Source: Undibacterium sp. | Lineage (GTDB): Bacteria > Pseudomonadota > Gammaproteobacteria > Burkholderiales > Burkholderiaceae_D | Length of the DNA stretch: 14,807 nt | Reading direction: 5' to 3' | NCBI GenBank assembly: GCA_019752975.1 | Contig: JAIELM010000011.1 | Location: 1-14,807 of the forward strand | Shown here: positions 2,071-11,137 of the stretch, piece by piece | How the letters are laid out: each line of letters starts with the position of its first letter | How positions within the stretch are numbered: the first letter of the stretch is position 1 | Notes under the pieces: generated by a model | Seen by the model: the letters and a program-made list of their open reading frames with translations, nothing else | Databases searched by the model: none | Told to the model about the DNA's origin: nothing | Position numbers and translations under genes: made by a program

Positions 2071-2958
2071 CTACCTTTTACCATGGTATAGCCAGGGCAG
2101 CATCAACTCTGTGGTGTCGGACGCGACATCTAGAGGCGACACTGATTGGTGTGCGACCGCGCCACATAGTGCTTCAATTAAACATAAGACCGTGCCCTCA
2201 GAATTAAATTGTCCTTTGGTTTGCGCGTAGAGCGTCAAATCAGCGAGCGCAGCTAAGGGGGAACTGGCGCGATCCGTGAGCGCCAATACTGGCACTTTAC
2301 GTGCTTTGACTTGTCCTAGTAGTGTGATCACGTCGCTAGAATAACGTGGGAATGAAATACCGATAACGAGATCATTCTCGGTAAACCGATACATCTGCTT
2401 GGACACTTGAGCGGAGCCACCACTGCCTATGCTAGCTTGAACGCCGTCACAGTAGTTGGTCAGTGCATGGCACATAATACCGCCTAGGTAGGCGCTGGCA
2501 CCATAGCCAATAATGTAAATTCGTTTGGCGGCGAGGATCATTCTGACAGCTCTTTCGCATAGTTCAGGATTAAGCAATCGTGCGGTAGCTTCCAGATTTT
2601 TAGTGTCTTCTTCAAGCGAACGAAGAAATAATTCGGCGCTAGTAGACTGACGACTTAGTTCGGCGCGTAATTGATCGATAGGTGCCAACATGGATTCAAA
2701 TCCACTGACCAATTCGGCACGAAACAACGGATAGCCATCAAAACCCAGTGCATGGGCAAAGCGATTGGCCGTGGCATTAGAAATACCTACCGCCAGCGCC
2801 AATTCGTCGATAGACATCGTGGCTGCGCGAAAGGTATTTGACATGACATAGTCGGCAGCTTTTTTATGCGAGCGAGAAAGAGAATTATAGACTTGGCCAA
2901 TGCGCTCATTGATTCCACTCTGTGCTCCTCCCAGAGCAGGGTTATTTTCTTGATTCAT
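2071..2958 (-). CDS. RpiR-family transcriptional regulator (HTH + SIS domain)
   Basis: This 295-aa protein has the RpiR/HexR layout. An N-terminal HTH_6 domain spans about residues 15-90 (AADYVMSNTFRAATMSIDEL, then VGISNATANRFAHALGFDGYPLFR, the family's recognition region). A SIS phosphosugar-binding domain spans about 130-270 (IYIIGYGASAYLGG, then VIGISFPRYSSDVITLL and VPVLALTDRASSPLAALAD). RpiR regulators usually bind phosphorylated sugars or related metabolites through SIS and control the uptake or catabolism of that compound. Here the gene is transcribed away from a TonB-dependent receptor gene, which makes the receptor a likely target. The ATG at 2958 begins the conserved family alignment well; no strong ribosome-binding site precedes it. 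The effector cannot be named from the sequence. Confidence 0.9.
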   Translation of the reverse strand: MNQENNPALGGAQSGINERIGQVYNSLSRSHKKAADYVMSNTFRAATMSIDELALAVGISNATANRFAHALGFDGYPLFRAELVSGFESMLAPIDQLRAELSRQSTSAELFLRSLEEDTKNLEATARLLNPELCERAVRMILAAKRIYIIGYGASAYLGGIMCHALTNYCDGVQASIGSGGSAQVSKQMYRFTENDLVIGISFPRYSSDVITLLGQVKARKVPVLALTDRASSPLAALADLTLYAQTKGQFNSEGTVLCLIEALCGAVAHQSVSPLDVASDTTELMLPWLYHGKR

Positions 2959-3525: not shown

Positions 3526-6500
3526 ATGTTAAAGAAAACTGTTATCGCCCATGCTTTAGGCTTGGCATTTGCCACTGGCACACTCTCTCTCGCTTTGGTT
3601 CAACCTGCATTCGCACAGTCGAACGCCAGCGGTACGGTTTTTGGACGTGTTGAGGCACAAGGTACGAGTATCTCCGTCAAGAATCTAGACACCAACTTGC
3701 AACGTAAAGTGACCACAGACGCAAGCGGTCGTTTTCAAATCACCGCTTTACCAGCTGGGCGCTATAAAGTTGATTTGCTACAGGGTGATAAAGTCATTAA
3801 CACCAGTGAAGTAGAGGTACTCAGTGGTCAAGGTGCGGAGGCTAGTTTTACCTCCGCTGTACAATCAGTACAAGTACTAGGCAAACGTACCAAGATTGAC
3901 GTTTCCAACACCAACAATGGCGCCAATTTCACCGCCCGTGATTTGGCAAAATTGCCGATTGCGCCTAACCTAGATGCGATCATTCAGTTGGCGCCAAATA
4001 CTACCCGTCCAGATTATCGTTATCTCGGTTCAAGCTTTGGCGGCAGCGGCGCGTCAGAGAATTCCTATTACATCAATGGCTTTCCTGTTACCAATGCCTT
4101 GACTGGTTTGGGCTCGTCAGAATTGCCATTCGGTGCGATTGCCGGCGCTCAAATTTTAACGGGTGGTTTTGGTGCGGAATTTGGTCGTTCTATTGGTGGC
4201 GTGGTGAATATCACTACCAAGAGTGGTACAAATAACTGGGAAACTGGTGCTCAGGTGAGTTTTACGCCAAGGAAGTTATTTGGCAAGCAAAAAGATATTT
4301 TGTACCCTAATACTGGTGCCACCGAAAATCTGACTACTGATGGGACAATGTATCAACGCCGCGCAGACAATACTCGTCAAGAAAAACTTATTGGCGCTTA
4401 TGTTGGAGGTCCAATTGTTCAAGATAAACTTTTCATGTTTTTGTCGGCAGAGACCAATTCAGTGGATCAAAGCCGTGTCGCTAGGGTAAGCTCTGAAGCA
4501 CCTGCGGCCTTGGCTAAATGGGGCTGGGGTGAGAGTACAGATAAAACCAATCGTTTATTGGCTAAGTTTGATTGGAATATCAACGACAATCATCGCTTGG
4601 AGTTGACCCATGTATTCGATGAGGCAACGCGCGACGTCTACTACTATGGCTATAACTATGCTAATTTTACTCACGGTAGCACCGTCAATTCAGGACAGCA
4701 TTATACCAATGATCCGGCCAGTAACACCGGCGTGGGTTCCAAGACTACCATGCTTAAGTACATCGCTAACATTACTGAAGATTTGACCTTGACAGCATTG
4801 GGTGGTCGTCTAGTTTCACCTCATAGTAATACTTTTGATGGAACCGACATTTATAGTTTGACCAGCTCAATACCGCAAGTGTCATCCACGTCACTCACGC
4901 GCGCACCAGGCTTGGTGTATAACAATAATCAAGCCATTTCCGGTAATATTTTGCCGCGTGGTGCTAACGACGTGGTGAAGTCTTTCCGCCTTGATTTGGA
5001 ATATAAACTCGGTAGTCACACCATACGGGTTGGTGGTGACAAGAATCGCTTAGACTCTACAGCGGGCGCCTTCCGCGCAGGTGGTAGTACATGGACATTC
5101 CAGAAGCAAGTGAACCCTACTGTTCCGTCTGCTTTGGTAGGTTCTGGGCCTACTAAGATAGCCATCGCTAACACTGGAGCTGGGCCTTTGGCAACTGCGG
5201 GATATTGGGTGAGTCAAACCATCTTCGATAGTGGGACTGTGATCGCTTCAGAGCAAACTTCTCAATACATAGAAGACCGTTGGCAAGCGACAAAAACACT
5301 GTTATTGTCATTTGGCCTGCGGGATGAGCAGTACAAGAACATTAATAGTGAAGGTGATGCTTTCTTGGATATGAAGAAGCAATATGCACCTCGCCTCGGC
5401 GCATCTTGGGACGTGAACGGCGATGCGTCATTCAAAGTATTTGGCACGGCTGGCCGCTATTACTTACAAGTACCTACTAGCATTTCTGTGCGTGCTCCTA
5501 GCCGCTCGATTAATACTACTCAAGCGTTTACTTATACCGGCTTAGATGCTAATGGCGCACCAACTGGTACGGTCGCATTAGCGGCGCCATTTTCAGCTAA
5601 CAATGAATACAATGTGCCTAAAGACGCGAAAGTCTTAGCCGCAATAGGTTTGAAACCTAACTTCCAAGATGAAATGACCTTGGGTTTTGAAAAAGCCTTT
5701 TCTCCTTCATTGAACTTCGGTGCTAAGGCCACTTACCGTAAATTGAAATCGACTTTAGATGACTATTGCGATCCACGTATTATTGATCGCTGGAAGTTGG
5801 CCAATCCTACAGTCGATACCTCTAAGATGAAAGCGCGCGGTTGCACCTTCATCAATCCAGGCGAGGACAACGTGTTTTGGCTAGATCTATATGATAATGA
5901 TCCAGCCTTGGCACGTAAGACCTATACTCGCGCAGTATTTACTAAAGAAATGTTGGGTTTGCCTAAAGCCGAACGTAATTATGCTGCGTTGGATTTATTT
6001 GCAGAACATCCTTTACGTGACGGTTGGTACGGTAAATTAAATTACACTTGGTCACGCAGTAAGGGTAATACCGAAGGACAAACTCGCTCCGACAACGGGC
6101 AAGCCAACCCAGGTTCCACGACCACATGGGATAGACCAGAGTTGGCAGAATACAGTAACGGTTTATTACCAAATGATCGCACCCATCAGATCAAGGGTTT
6201 TGGTTATTATGACTTCAATCCTCAGTGGACATTGGGTGGTAACTTCTTAGTTTCTAGCGGACGGCCTTTAAGCTGCATAGGAAATCACCCTACAGATACG
6301 GCCTATCAAGCTAATTACTTTTACTGTAAAGGGCAACCAGCACCTCGCGGCAGTTATGGACGATTGCCAGTTGATGCACGTCTTGATATGAATCTGGTCT
6401 ATCGTCCTCAGATGTTGAAGGACTTTGCGTTTCGATTGGATGTCTTCAATTTAACCGACAGACAGACGGTACAAGCTTTGAACGAAACCTATAATTCGGG

Positions 6501-6591
6501 CAATGCGGTTAACTCTGGTTATGGACGTGTTGCAAGTTACGCCTTACCACGTTCTGTACGTTTCACTGCTGAATACAATAAGAAGTTCTAA
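3526..6591 (+). CDS. Oar-like TonB-dependent outer-membrane receptor
   Basis: The 1021-aa protein has a signal peptide cut after AFA30. A carboxypeptidase-regulatory-like beta domain covers about residues 35-110 (VFGRVEAQGTSISV, then TTDASGRFQITALPAGRYKV). SVQVLGKR near 115 could be the TonB box. The plug covers about 120-235 and ends in GGVVNITTKSG. A large beta-barrel follows and closes with a terminal aromatic residue (EYNKKF), as in outer-membrane porins. It should import a scarce ligand across the outer membrane using TonB energy. Two Cys pairs (748/773 and 917/934) sit in probable surface loops and may be disulfides. GGAAG lies 4 nt before the ATG. It is divergent from an RpiR regulator and followed by a strong terminator. 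The ligand is not known; the neighbour hints at a sugar-like compound. Confidence 0.9.
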   Translation: MLKKTVIAHALGLAFATGTLSLALVQPAFAQSNASGTVFGRVEAQGTSISVKNLDTNLQRKVTTDASGRFQITALPAGRYKVDLLQGDKVINTSEVEVLSGQGAEASFTSAVQSVQVLGKRTKIDVSNTNNGANFTARDLAKLPIAPNLDAIIQLAPNTTRPDYRYLGSSFGGSGASENSYYINGFPVTNALTGLGSSELPFGAIAGAQILTGGFGAEFGRSIGGVVNITTKSGTNNWETGAQVSFTPRKLFGKQKDILYPNTGATENLTTDGTMYQRRADNTRQEKLIGAYVGGPIVQDKLFMFLSAETNSVDQSRVARVSSEAPAALAKWGWGESTDKTNRLLAKFDWNINDNHRLELTHVFDEATRDVYYYGYNYANFTHGSTVNSGQHYTNDPASNTGVGSKTTMLKYIANITEDLTLTALGGRLVSPHSNTFDGTDIYSLTSSIPQVSSTSLTRAPGLVYNNNQAISGNILPRGANDVVKSFRLDLEYKLGSHTIRVGGDKNRLDSTAGAFRAGGSTWTFQKQVNPTVPSALVGSGPTKIAIANTGAGPLATAGYWVSQTIFDSGTVIASEQTSQYIEDRWQATKTLLLSFGLRDEQYKNINSEGDAFLDMKKQYAPRLGASWDVNGDASFKVFGTAGRYYLQVPTSISVRAPSRSINTTQAFTYTGLDANGAPTGTVALAAPFSANNEYNVPKDAKVLAAIGLKPNFQDEMTLGFEKAFSPSLNFGAKATYRKLKSTLDDYCDPRIIDRWKLANPTVDTSKMKARGCTFINPGEDNVFWLDLYDNDPALARKTYTRAVFTKEMLGLPKAERNYAALDLFAEHPLRDGWYGKLNYTWSRSKGNTEGQTRSDNGQANPGSTTTWDRPELAEYSNGLLPNDRTHQIKGFGYYDFNPQWTLGGNFLVSSGRPLSCIGNHPTDTAYQANYFYCKGQPAPRGSYGRLPVDARLDMNLVYRPQMLKDFAFRLDVFNLTDRQTVQALNETYNSGNAVNSGYGRVASYALPRSVRFTAEYNKKF

Positions 6592-6615
6592 TTCAAGTTG
6601 TAAGGTGTAAAAAAA

Positions 6616-6647
6616 GCCGCTAGCTTTTTTGCTAGCGGCTTTTTTTT
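6616..6647. terminator. Strong terminator after the TonB receptor gene (copy 1)
   Basis: GCCGCTAGC (6616-6624) pairs perfectly with GCTAGCGGC (6631-6639) around a loop of six T. Eight T follow on the plus strand and seven A precede it, so it can act in both directions. It lies 24 nt past the receptor's stop codon. Confidence 0.92.
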
Positions 6648-6704
6648 ATTCCTCTCGCAACCAAGTTTGTGAACGTCCAAACAACGATATGCCAATATAG
6701 CCGC
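6646..6704 (-). pseudogene. 3'-end fragment of a DUF2147 gene
   Basis: Read on the minus strand, 6704 to 6646 encodes GYIGISLFGRSQTWLREE and a TAA stop, identical to the C-terminus of the intact DUF2147 protein at 7650-8099. Upstream of 6704 the similarity ends and the same frame soon meets stop codons. With no start and only 18 codons, it is a duplicated gene end rather than a gene. Confidence 0.85.
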
Positions 6705-6792
6705 TTAAGTTGCGTTATTATTTTTATAATTAACCAGTTTTTTTGCAAATCAACTTGAAAGTGATCAGATTTTGCGAAAAATCACTCTCTCC

Positions 6793-7077
6793 TTATGCCA
6801 TGTTTAGATAGATTATTCCCTTGATGGTACTCAGTTAGCTCACTCTTGCCACGCCAAATAAGAGCTTCGCTGTGTCGATGCATTTTTCAATGATATAGCG
6901 GTGCTTGCTAATGGGTTTCGGGGTTTTAATTTTTTGTGCTGTCAGCAGCGTGTTTCTTTACGCTTTACCTATGGTCGCAATGAAATGGGTGGCTTCAATT
7001 TCATTGGCATAGGTTGTGTGTACGTCACAAACATAACCATCGCTCTTGATCTGTTGCACGTGTGATGTTTTTATTCG
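6793..7077 (-). pseudogene. Decayed IS5-type transposase fragment
   Basis: One minus-strand frame from 7077 to 6793 reads through two in-frame stops (6958-6960 and 6835-6837) and resembles the C-terminal half of IS5-family DDE transposases. DGYVCDVHTTYANEIEATHF recalls the 'GlVh.v.tTaANvhd.tq' segment. PISKHRYIIEKCIDTAKLLF recalls the conserved '.i.r.RyvvEq.fgtlKr.f' segment with its catalytic Glu. The last part (LSTIKGIIYLNMA) recalls the usual '..L.ai..NL..A' end. The block between the two motifs, including the DaGY region, is missing, and no N-terminal half or terminal inverted repeat was found. It cannot encode an active enzyme. The assignment rests on motif memory, not a search. Confidence 0.55.
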
Positions 7078-7265
7078 GACGCGCCACCGATGTGATGAGC
7101 GTGGCGTAGGTAGAATAGTACAATTTAAATACAAAAATTTTAAAAATCAATATTATTAAATAATTTTTTATGATACATTCATAAAGGATGACGATGTTTT
7201 CCCATCCACGTTTCGTTGCTATTTTACACTAACGATAAATACACTTCGTTTGTTAATCGCTGGAA

Positions 7266-7294
7266 TTGACATTTGTGAAAAATCGACATAAAAA
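7266..7294 (+). promoter_or_regulatory. Possible promoter of the small secreted-protein gene
   Basis: A consensus -35 TTGACA (7266-7271) is followed after 17 bp by TAAAAA (7289-7294), a weak -10. Transcription would start about 25-30 nt before the ATG at 7328. Confidence 0.35.
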
Positions 7295-7327
7295 CACAAC
7301 TCACCTAAAACCTTTAATGGACTATCA

Positions 7328-7564
7328 ATGAAAACTCAAAAACTTAAACTATCGTTCTTGATGTTATTGTCAATTGCGATCTTAAGCTTAATTTCTATTC
7401 GCGCATTTGCATGGCCTCAATATGGATATGTTTATCTCTATTACGCCGAGCCAAGCAAAACTACTTTGGTTGGCTGGCGCGAATATGCATGTACAGGGAC
7501 GAATGCATTAGTCGCTAAAGAATCTGCTTACTTTGATATTGAGAGATATAATTGCGAGTATTGA
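7328..7564 (+). CDS. Small secreted protein, DUF6289-like
   Basis: This 78-aa protein has a clear signal peptide (KTQKLKLS, a hydrophobic core, then AFA near residue 28), leaving a mature peptide of about 50 residues. The mature part is rich in Tyr (YGYVYLYYAE) and has two Cys, in REYAC and in the terminal ERYNCEY. The pattern Y..YY...., vG.r...C.G, ...YfdiE...C resembles the DUF6289 family of short exported proteins; the function is unknown to me. The ribosome-binding site is weak. The gene sits alone inside the segment bounded by the 96-bp repeats, beside transposase remnants, and is closed by the copy-2 terminator. That setting suggests accessory cargo, which is inference. A single-disulfide peptide with a secretion signal could be a signal, toxin or envelope peptide; none can be chosen from sequence. 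Confidence 0.65.
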   Translation: MKTQKLKLSFLMLLSIAILSLISIRAFAWPQYGYVYLYYAEPSKTTLVGWREYACTGTNALVAKESAYFDIERYNCEY

Positions 7565-7612
7565 ATATAGTTCTGTGATGCAAGAATTGTTAGCCTTATT
7601 ATTGTAGACGTA

Positions 7613-7708
7613 AAAAAAAGCCGCTAGCTTTTTTGCTAGCGGCTTTTTTTTATTCCTCTCGCAACCAAGTTTGTGAACGTCCAAACAACGATATGCCAAT
7701 ATAGCCGC
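7613..7708. repeat. 96-bp direct repeat, copy 2
   Basis: This is the second copy of the repeat at 6609-6704, exactly 1004 bp downstream and identical over 96 bases. Here it forms the real 3' end of the intact DUF2147 gene plus its terminator, so this copy, or its ancestor, is the probable source. Confidence 0.97.
7620..7651. terminator. Bidirectional terminator between convergent genes (copy 2)
   Basis: GCCGCTAGC (7620-7628) pairs with GCTAGCGGC (7635-7643), flanked by eight A on the left and eight T on the right. On the plus strand it follows the DUF6289-like gene by 55 nt. On the minus strand it follows DUF2147 directly: that gene's TAA (7652-7650) overlaps the A/T flank of the hairpin. 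Confidence 0.92.
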
Positions 7709-8099
7709 GCACATCGAGTTTTTTGTTATTGTCGGTGACGGATAATTTGCTGTTATAAATCTTACCGTTGGCTGGGTCTAAGATGGAACCGCCGTTGTAC
7801 TCATCGCCATTTTTCTTGAGGCCAAATAGTATGGTCATTCCGAGTAATGGTTGGTCTTTGTTGGCGCCTTCGCATTTATCGCATTTGGGTTGTTGCTCTT
7901 GGTCGGGTTCGCGAAAAAGTTTTTCTATCTTGCCTTGTAATTCACCATTGGTTTCTGTGATGCGTACTAGCGATTTTACTTTGCCAGTTTTGTCATCGAT
8001 GGTTTTCCAAAGGCCTACTGGGGACTGGGCGTAGCAGAGTTGTGCTGCGAGTATGGTGATGCTGGCCAAAGATATTTGGACTATGTGCGATGTTTTCAT
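7650..8099 (-). CDS. DUF2147 exported protein
   Basis: The 149-aa protein has a signal peptide ending near CYA24-Q. Its mature part is a textbook DUF2147 domain: SPVGLWKTIDDKTGKVKSLV, then GKIEKLF, CDKC (73-76), LLGMTIL, GGSILDPANGKIY, and LDVRGYIGISLFGRSQTW at the end. Family members are small periplasmic or secreted proteins with a lipocalin-like look and no firmly established role. The CxxC pair could form a disulfide or bind metal. GGAG lies 5 nt before the ATG and supports the start. The gene is convergent with its left neighbour, and its last 18 codons plus the terminator are duplicated 1 kb away. It is probably transcribed from a promoter in 8100-8230, where I see no clear consensus. 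Confidence 0.92.
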   Translation of the reverse strand: MKTSHIVQISLASITILAAQLCYAQSPVGLWKTIDDKTGKVKSLVRITETNGELQGKIEKLFREPDQEQQPKCDKCEGANKDQPLLGMTILFGLKKNGDEYNGGSILDPANGKIYNSKLSVTDNNKKLDVRGYIGISLFGRSQTWLREE

Positions 8100-8326: not shown

Positions 8327-11137
8327 CTATGCCAATTTTGCCATTTGCTCCCTTAACTTACTCAAGGTGGCGTTAAACGCGGCCATGCGTTCTTGCTCCT
8401 GCGCGACCACTGCGGCGGGCGCACGTGCGACAAAGCTTTCATTGCCTAGTTTGGCCTGTGCTTTGCTGATTTCTCCCTCTAAGCGGGTGATTTCTTTCGA
8501 TAAACGCTCGCGTTCAGCTGCGGCGTCGATTTCTACTTTGAGCATGAGTTTAGTTTCACCCACGATGGAAACGGGGGCGGGGGATTCTGGCAAGACATCG
8601 ACCACTTGGACTTCTGAAAGCTTGGCGAGCGCTTGCAAATACGGCGCATAGCTTTGCAATAGTAGTTTGTCCTGTTGGTTCGCCGCTTGCATTAATAGGG
8701 GGACGCGCACCGCAGGCGAGAGTTGCATTTCGCCGCGTAAATTGCGACAAGCATCGGTGGTCGCTTTGAGGCCTTGCATCCAATTTTCTGCTGCAGGATC
8801 TATCGCGCCCGTGTCAGCGATCGGGTAGGCTTGAACCATGATCGAGTCACCCGCTTGATTGAGGATCTTTCCTGCTAAAGGTGCGACGGTTTGCCACAGT
8901 GTCTCGGTAATAAAGGGGATTACTGGATGGGCTAATCTTAAGGTAACTTCCAACACGCGTAATAGGGTGCGGCGGGTGGCACGTTGCTCCGCTTCGCTGC
9001 CCTGTTGCATTTGTACTTTGGCGACTTCCAAATACCAATCACAATATTCATCCCAAACAAATTGGTAGATGCTCGAAGCAATATGATCGAAGCGATAGTC
9101 GGTAAAGCCTTTTTCGATTTCAGCTTCGCTGCGCTGTAAGGTGGAGATAATCCAACGGTCAGCCTGTGAATAAGCTAGCTCAGCGTCTGCTGCTAAGCCA
9201 CAATCTTTCGCTTCGGTATTCATCAAAACAAAGCGGGTTGCATTCCATAGTTTATTGCAGAAGTTGCGGTATCCTTCGCAACGACCTAGGTCAAAATTAA
9301 TATTGCGACCAAGTGAAGCATAGCTCGCCATGGTGAAGCGTAGAGCGTCCGTACCATAGGCAGAAATACCTTCGGCAAATTCTTTGCGGGTGGCTTTTTC
9401 GATAGTGGCCGCTTGCTTGGGATTCATTAATCCAGCGGTGCGTTTGGCGACTAAATCATCCAGACGAATGCCATCGATCAAGTCGATTGGATCTAAGGTG
9501 TTTCCCTTAGATTTGGACATTTTTTGACCACTAGAATCTCGTACTAAACCATGTACATAGACCGTGTGGAAAGGCACTTTTCCGGTGAAGTGTGCGGTCA
9601 TCATGACCATGCGCGCGACCCAAAAAAAGATGATGTCAAAACCTGTGACTAAGACTGAAGATGGTAAGAATAATTCACTGTCTAAAGTTGCTTCCGGCCA
9701 GCCCATAGTGGAGAATGGAACGAGAGCCGACGAGAACCATGTGTCGAGTACATCTTCGTCACGTTTTAGGGGGCCGGTATAGCCAGCCGCGTGTGCTTTG
9801 GCGGTGGCTTTTTCTTCATTTTGAGCGACAAAAATTTCCCCATTTTCACCATACCAAGCCGGGATTTGATGGCCCCACCAGAGTTGCCGCGAGATGCACC
9901 AATCTTGGATATTGCCTAGCCATTGGTTGTAGGTGGTGCTCCAGTTTTCGGGTACGAATTTAACTTCACCATTAGCCACTTTTTCCAACGCCACTTCGGC
10001 AATGGATTTACCTGGGAAATGAGTTCCTTCTGGTGCCGGTTTGCTCATCGCCATAAACCATTGATCGGTCAACATAGGTTCGATCACAACGTTGGTTCTG
10101 TCGCCACGTGGCACCATAAGTTTATGTGGTTTGACGGATTCCAATAAACCCTGTGCATCGAGATCAGCCACCATTTGTTTGCGTGCGACAAATCTATCCA
10201 TGCCCTGATAGACAAGTGGCGCGTTCGCATTAATTTTTGCGTCAAGAGTGAGGATACTGATGAGTTCTAACTTGTGACGTTGACCGACCGCATAATCGTT
10301 GAAATCGTGTGCTGGAGTGATCTTGACACACCCGGTTCCGAATTCTTTGTCGACATAGTCATCCGCGATGATGGGAATTTCTCTATCGGTGAGCGGTAGT
10401 TTGAGCATCTTACCGACAAAAGATGTATAGCGTTCGTCGGTAGGATCGACCGCTACCGCAACGTCACCTAGGAGGGTTTCTGGACGGGTAGTGGCCACGG
10501 TTAAATGTCCGCTTCCATCAGCAAAAGGGTAGCGAATATGCCACATAGAACCGTCTTCTTCTTCCGAGACGACTTCCAAATCTGAAACGGCAGTGCCTAA
10601 AACAGGATCCCAATTCACCAAGCGTTTGCCGCGATAAATTAAGCCCTGTTCCACTAATCTAACAAACACCTCAGTTACGCTAGCTGAGCGCGGCGCATCC
10701 ATCGTAAAATATTCGCGTTGCCAATCAGGTGAAGTGCCCATGCGACGCATTTGACCAGTAATGGTGGAGCCGGATTGTTCTTTCCATTCCCAGACTTTTT
10801 CGACGAATTTCTCGCGTCCCAAATCATGACGCGATACTTTTTGCGCATCCAATTGACGCTCCACCACGATCTGGGTGGCGATACCTGCGTGATCGGTACC
10901 TGGTATCCATGCCGTATTGTGCCCGCGCATGCGATAGTAACGAGTCAGACCGTCCATAATCGTTTGATTAAACGCGTGCCCCATGTGTAATGTGCCGGTG
11001 ACATTGGGGGGCGGGAGTTGTATGCTAAACGAAGGCTTACTTTGGTCTGTGCTAGCAGCAAAATAGCCGCGTTGCTCCCACTCCTTGCGCCAAAAAGCTT
11101 CAATGTCGGTGGGTTCAAAAGATTTAGCTAATTCCAT
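8327..11137 (-). CDS. valS: Valyl-tRNA synthetase
   Basis: This 936-aa class I aminoacyl-tRNA synthetase charges tRNA-Val with valine in the cytoplasm. The HIGH motif appears as HMGH (51-54) after PPPNVTGTL, and the KMSKS loop is exact at 539-543 ([10 protein letters not shown]). The inserted editing (CP1) domain is shown by [10 protein letters not shown] (216-225) and [15 protein letters not shown] (267-281), which in this family hydrolyses mischarged Thr-t[17 protein letters not shown] sequence (414-426) and LDTWFSSAL (464-472) are further conserved blocks. The C-terminal 60-70 residues form the usual ValRS coiled coil ([20 protein letters not shown]). Length is normal for the family and the protein is complete. 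The ATG at 11137 begins the conserved N-terminus; the ribosome-binding site is poor. Confidence 0.98.

Follow-up and report, generated by a model that had tools for sequence, protein, structure and literature searches.

Results

The locus and its features

The window, by which we mean the whole stretch of 14,807 nucleotides analysed here, carries two copies of a direct repeat (R1 and R2) on either side of a short interior, and these lie between a TonB-dependent receptor gene and a DUF2147 gene. Judging by its named relatives, the bacterium belongs to the genus Undibacterium. The relevant features are as follows:

2071-2958, minus strand: gene of an rpiR-family regulator (HTH_6 plus SIS), which adjoins DUF2147 in seven named loci of relatives and marks the empty interval
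3526-6591, plus strand: TonB-dependent receptor gene, presumably Oar-like (Pfam CarboxypepD_reg and OMP_b-brl_4, with a weak Plug match)
6609-6704, no strand assigned: R1, the first repeat copy, a putative terminator hairpin plus a detached DUF2147 3' end (18 codons and stop), identical to 7613-7708, hairpin z -8.2
6705-7612, no strand assigned: interior between R1 and R2, 908 bp, with parts at 35-37% GC, single copy in its own assembled genome
6796-7146, minus strand: C-terminal remnant of a decayed IS5-family transposase, with two in-frame stops, some 35 residues absent inside and both ends absent
7328-7564, plus strand: ORF of 78 amino acids with a signal-peptide-like start (by eye), a divergent relative of DUF6289 (PF19806) proteins
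7613-7708, no strand assigned: R2, the second repeat copy, a putative terminator hairpin plus the DUF2147 3' end in place
7650-8099, minus strand: intact DUF2147 gene (Pfam PF09917, E 1.9e-33)
8327-11137, minus strand: ValS gene, which in relatives also often adjoins DUF2147

The receptor stop codon is separated from R1 by 17 nt, and that of the 78-aa ORF from R2 by 48 nt. Outside this region, a TPP riboswitch (RF00059, 59.4 bits, above the gathering score) was found near the right end of the contig (13714-13814, plus strand), and the minus strand at 208-765 encodes a protein with a HEWGHT motif and a weak match (24.6 bits, where the cut-off is 250) to NF050010, a family of neutral zinc metallopeptidases.

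Structure of the repeats

Direct comparison of R1 and R2 showed an identity of exactly 96 bp with zero differences. The right edge is abrupt (TTAAG versus GCACA beyond the identity) and in R1 coincides with no gene or hairpin boundary, while the left edge lies inside an A-tract that is found in both flanks, with 7 A in R1, 8 A in R2 and GT before both. Each copy contains the stop codon and last 18 codons of DUF2147, two further nucleotides and a strong hairpin, and the DUF2147 stop codon merges directly into the A-tract of the latter. The plus strand folded at -25.6 kcal/mol (z -8.2) in R1 and -29.3 kcal/mol (z -8.8) in R2, and the minus strand of R2 at -30.4 kcal/mol (z -8.0). Exact comparison, Pfam and folding thus confirm what the initial annotation had described, namely identical 96-bp copies of a DUF2147 end with its hairpin. 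The hairpin call rests on folding, since the promoter- and terminator-like sites of a consensus scan were at or below chance level and neither hairpin was listed among them. An Rfam search of 6500-7800 at E up to 1 returned 23 matches, most of them over the hairpins and all under the gathering score of their family (best E 1.9e-4). From their positions, R1 would be the terminator of the receptor gene and R2 a bidirectional terminator serving DUF2147 on the minus strand and the 78-aa ORF on the plus strand.

Two short matches around R1 were noticed by eye. AAGTTG occurs in direct orientation on either side (6595-6600 and 6707-6712), and 6592-6600 and 6751-6759 match over 9 nt in inverted orientation (TTCAAGTTG/CAACTTGAA). 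By a rough estimate, both may be traces of a joint or may have arisen by chance.

Copy number and rarity

R1/R2 is the sole exact direct repeat of at least 24 bp within 5 kb in the window. A further 40 contigs of this genome, 572 kb in total, contained seven such repeats, none of at least 60 bp, and R1/R2 was also the longest exact repeat in the 46 contigs examined (window included, four cut at 20 kb), the runner-up measuring 62 bp. The pair is therefore far beyond chance. Close direct repeats are not in themselves rare in the genus, since G014 has ten of at least 24 bp within 5 kb in 200 kb, seven of them of at least 60 bp (two of these seven resemble tRNA genes by eye); G005 has two in 200 kb, one of at least 60 bp. 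In G005 (L260), a terminator-bearing sequence of 94 bp that occurs twice in direct orientation, 286 bp apart, was considered as a parallel and rejected, as it belongs to an array in which one unit matches a toxic small RNA of Betaproteobacteria (RF02278). This array (5891-6590) consists of three intergenic units that resemble one another and point the same way, the third recognized by eye; two share 94 identical bases.

The search for the 96-bp unit across the genome and in other strains, proposed in the initial annotation, placed it at a single locus: no copy was found elsewhere in its own assembled genome, which is 73% complete and may hold a further one, and with up to two mismatches the hairpin occurred in the same assembly only at R1 and R2. 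Thus, neither a scatter of the unit over unrelated loci nor relatives carrying both repeats, the two observations that the initial annotation had named as refuting its reading, was seen in the genomes searched. The many genomic copies of a dispersed terminator or REP-like repeat were likewise lacking, the hairpin having two sites only. A 53-bp piece of the unit had no exact match in viral contigs, and plasmids yielded a single match of 79 bp to Rhizobium (79.7%) in the DUF2147-tail part. The same genome does hold two dispersed repeat families of other sequence, one containing GACTTACGCAAAACAGACGCTGGCGTTGTTGC (for example at L221 10923 and 10995, L225 10371, L226 4921-5348 and L233 1187) and one with CGCCGAGGCGCGGAGACGCGGAG (for example at L214 16961, L227 8302-8370, L238 3964 and L239 2775-2860), the latter also present at a contig end (L183, base 1).

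The interior

In its own genome the interior had no second match better than E 2.6. When the whole stretch was compared at the nucleotide level with 59 relatives, a search in which only seven candidate places were scored in most genus genomes, matches were confined to the repeats and the bases directly beside them, with none in the interior. The description of this DNA as foreign-looking is weak, as its GC content resembles that of the intergenic region between rpiR and the receptor gene (35%).

The transposase piece makes up about 40% of the interior. Its family was established through a homologous remnant in G022 (E 2.4e-7 to the interior), which matched the IS5-family model NF033581 with E 7.7e-11 and 41.9 bits (below the cut-off of 140) and in Pfam exceeded the cut-offs for both DDE_Tnp_4 and DDE_Tnp_1. 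The 117-aa read-through from the window itself reached E 0.019 and 14.3 bits with the same NF033581 model (cut-off 140) and had no match in Pfam; in 145 genomes of the family it found, besides itself, four weak places (E 0.02-0.09). Alignments with full-length IS5 transposases (E 3e-4 and 0.002) revealed the internal gap and the missing ends, and together with the two stops these bear out the view that the transposase is old and decayed. No terminal inverted repeats were detected at the ends of the interior, the observed score being reached by 461 of 500 shuffles. Nothing was found in Pfam with five interior pieces up to E 10, in NCBIfam with two interior pieces and the 78-aa ORF at E 1, among phages with 6705-7330, or among plasmids by tblastn with two transposase pieces; the G022 piece matched eight plasmid records, several of them named as IS5 family.

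The 78-aa ORF matched small proteins in four of 42 other genus genomes (E 1e-9 to 3e-5, 30-36% identity). Three of these four passed the DUF6289 cut-off and one fell short of it, and an alignment of all five proteins had eight invariant columns. The ORF itself did not match the DUF6289 Pfam model, nor did it find a homologue in a large protein set or a match in PHROGs at 0.1; a Pfam match to T_cell_tran_alt (E 0.045) was taken as chance. In G002:C2 (L179 4245-10989), a DUF6289 small protein gene was observed with two receptor sequences in its vicinity, one an intact gene and the other a homologue interrupted by in-frame stops.

The locus in related genomes

A DUF2147 match was present in 37 of the 59 relatives, including 32 of the 35 belonging to the same genus. 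The gene was next to ValS in 22, next to rpiR in six and next to neither in one of 29 loci with flanks of about 1.5 kb; in 19 named loci with flanks of up to 6 kb, drawn from overlapping genomes and hence not independent of the former, the figures were 11, seven and one. In none of these loci was a receptor match found beside DUF2147, and the conserved neighbours are ValS or rpiR, which argues against the ancestral convergent pair of TonB receptor and DUF2147 that had been postulated. Within the stretches examined, only the window has both ValS and rpiR near DUF2147. In the seven named loci of the rpiR type, about 335-642 bp lie between the DUF2147 and rpiR matches; in the window the two genes are 4.7 kb apart. 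When these seven intervals were searched by blastn with the interior and with the intergenic region on the receptor side, only DUF2147-tail matches and short ones at chance level were obtained. As for the proposed search for an empty site with one copy, these seven loci have no receptor, interior or second repeat, and none has the arrangement receptor, one repeat and DUF2147.

Within the stretches examined, the 3' end of DUF2147 was single in all 18 relative loci tested with its last 45 coding bases, up to nine mismatches being allowed, and a second end was seen in none. Past the DUF2147 stop, relatives have a different sequence, with any hairpin some distance beyond (by eye). The closest relative of the receptor in the genus (71%, in G024) is at a different locus, and by eye nine other receptor 3' flanks, seven from relatives and two from paralogues in the same genome, are unlike the repeat, so that R1 is not a conserved receptor terminator. 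Among the best 120 of 7,997 DUF2147 proteins, none except that of the window was above 78% identity. Judged by its conserved neighbours, the interval between DUF2147 and rpiR is variable and takes up DNA, and the repeat pair is specific to this lineage among those sampled.

Age of the duplication

With no differences in 96 positions, the 95% upper bound on divergence is 3.1%, assuming no gene conversion. The perfect identity had been read as a sign of either recent origin or gene conversion; on sequence grounds the duplication is apparently recent, and an older one could have been kept identical by conversion. Since 96 identical bases stand beside a long-dead IS5 piece, the duplication seems younger than the decay of the transposase, and if so it was not the work of any enzyme that the interior still encodes.

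Discussion

Origin of the duplication

The structure is real but most likely ordinary. On balance, we lean towards reading the repeat pair as a scar, non-mobile and of recent origin, left by a duplication in the variable DUF2147-rpiR interval. This interval would have taken up the receptor gene and a segment with the small gene and the IS remnant, and a second DUF2147 tail with its terminator would have been placed between the receptor and the interior by a recent illegitimate recombination. The route that we favour is a one-sided recombination of two alleles, rpiR-receptor-terminator-DUF2147 and a resident interior-terminator-DUF2147, in which the incoming allele would have used homology on the rpiR side and end-joining inside the DUF2147 tail, that is, homology-facilitated illegitimate recombination (HFIR). 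We prefer this joining because a single event would explain an R1 cut inside a gene, the identical copies and why no recombinase was needed; moreover, a right edge of R1 at no gene or hairpin boundary is as expected for a broken DNA end. Neither supposed parental allele appeared in searches of the 59 relatives and of the best 120 of the 7,997 DUF2147 proteins. It also counts against the scar that a 3' end copy beside an intact gene is what a site-specific element leaves as well. HFIR is known in three competent species and, rarely, in E. coli, where the measured frequency was very low (3x10^-10 per recipient, PMC3240628), and such a rate counts against HFIR where competence is absent. Replication template switching would be a close alternative route, and complex rearrangements in starving E. 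coli have been read in this way (PMC3161906).

In the resulting arrangement, the second DUF2147 tail and terminator would now occupy the position expected for the terminator of the receptor. The receptor transcript would end at R1, and those of DUF2147 and the small gene at R2. If R1 and R2 recombined, the interior could be lost without damage to either outer gene, and one terminator would remain.

Tandem duplications are common. Had a segment of about 1 kb with the DUF2147 tail at its end been duplicated, and had most of the first copy then been lost by deletion between A-tracts or terminators that resemble each other, the left edge would lie at the foot of the hairpin, as seen. Such a history requires two events, however, and there is no trace of a second interior or of the remaining DUF2147, so we regard it as unlikely. 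We also see only a small chance that the structure is a product of metagenome assembly or strain mixing, with some cells having receptor-terminator-DUF2147 and others the interior in a different arrangement, a tandem array or a circle. The window is the whole of one contig in a genome of 575 contigs that is presumably a MAG, and a 96-bp repeat, the longest encountered in the 46 contigs examined, may exceed the word length of the assembler (to which the contig ends gave no clue), in which case the assembler may have guessed how to traverse it. Against this, both the repeat-interior and the interior-repeat joints need reads even in a collapsed graph, and the assembled genome is the simplest one that fits all joints.

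A further possibility is the remnant of a CIME-like site-specific integrative element that lost its integrase, with the DUF2147 3' end as attachment site, R2 as the rebuilt gene and R1 as the displaced original end. Such elements classically leave direct repeats that represent the 3' end of a gene and, on one side, the gene itself undamaged; as in an IME, ICE or CIME, the flanking direct repeats here consist of a gene 3' end, that of DUF2147, with its terminator; the small gene of the interior is moreover cargo-like. Site-specific integration, suggested initially on the basis of this pattern, has nothing else in its favour. In line with the statement that no integrase is present, Pfam disclosed no tyrosine or serine recombinase in pieces of the interior or in 14 ORFs of the window, although a CIME need not carry one. 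The interior occupies one genomic place, is unmatched in the 59 relatives and is just 908 bp long with a large share of transposase remnant. The same attachment site was not seen in other genomes, the second DUF2147 end being missing from all 18 relative loci, and the viral contigs lacked the 53-bp piece. The attC motif is RYYYAAC ... GTTRRRY, and no attC core site was found on either strand around R1 or R2. As to an insertion sequence, terminal inverted repeats and an intact transposase were not found, and we know of no 96-bp target duplication for IS5 elements. A literature search with the wording "DUF2147" and "insertion site" returned no paper containing both. We hold an integrative remnant to be quite improbable.

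Finally, we think it very unlikely that the locus is a recombinase-free loop-out cassette, in which a small secreted DUF6289-like gene would sit between two copies of its neighbour's tail and bidirectional terminator, host recombination would remove the gene precisely, the receptor would always keep a terminator, and a gene new to a locus could obtain a terminator by duplicating that of its neighbour.

If the recombination scar is the true explanation, the locus is a clear case of short duplications resembling attachment sites that arose without a mobile element, and shows a newly arrived gene given a terminator copied from its neighbour; if it is not, this is ordinary genome wear. The locus also cautions against calling genomic islands on flanking repeats alone.

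Comparison with known systems

In integrative and mobilizable or cis-mobilizable elements located at gene 3' ends, the direct repeats represent the 3' end of the gene, which stays intact at one side. The repeats of the window are likewise a gene 3' end with DUF2147 intact at one side; the window differs in that no integrase was found, no transfer genes were seen, the interior is tiny and there is no recurrence in the 18 relative loci. With IS5-family insertion sequences (NF033581) the interior shares a C-terminal transposase remnant, but it has this remnant only and no inverted repeats were found. In HFIR (PMC3240628), one homologous and one illegitimate joint would add DNA and might duplicate a stretch with no recombinase involved; for the window, HFIR is a proposed origin.

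The H47 genomic island of E. coli and its pUY-FRT model (PMC5426353) resemble the window in having a segment between direct repeats and no recombinase of its own. The repeats of the H47 island, of 148 and 144 bp, are imperfect and lie 12,635 bp from each other, and its excision was detected by PCR (PMC5426353), whereas excision in the window is a prediction. Plasmid pUY-FRT, with 46-bp perfect repeats 886 bp apart, undergoes deletion in a RecA-deficient setting (Azpiroz and Lavina 2017, PMC5426353), and its dimensions are similar to those of the window (96 bp and 908 bp). By analogy with this RecA-independent deletion, the interior of the window would be expected to be losable.
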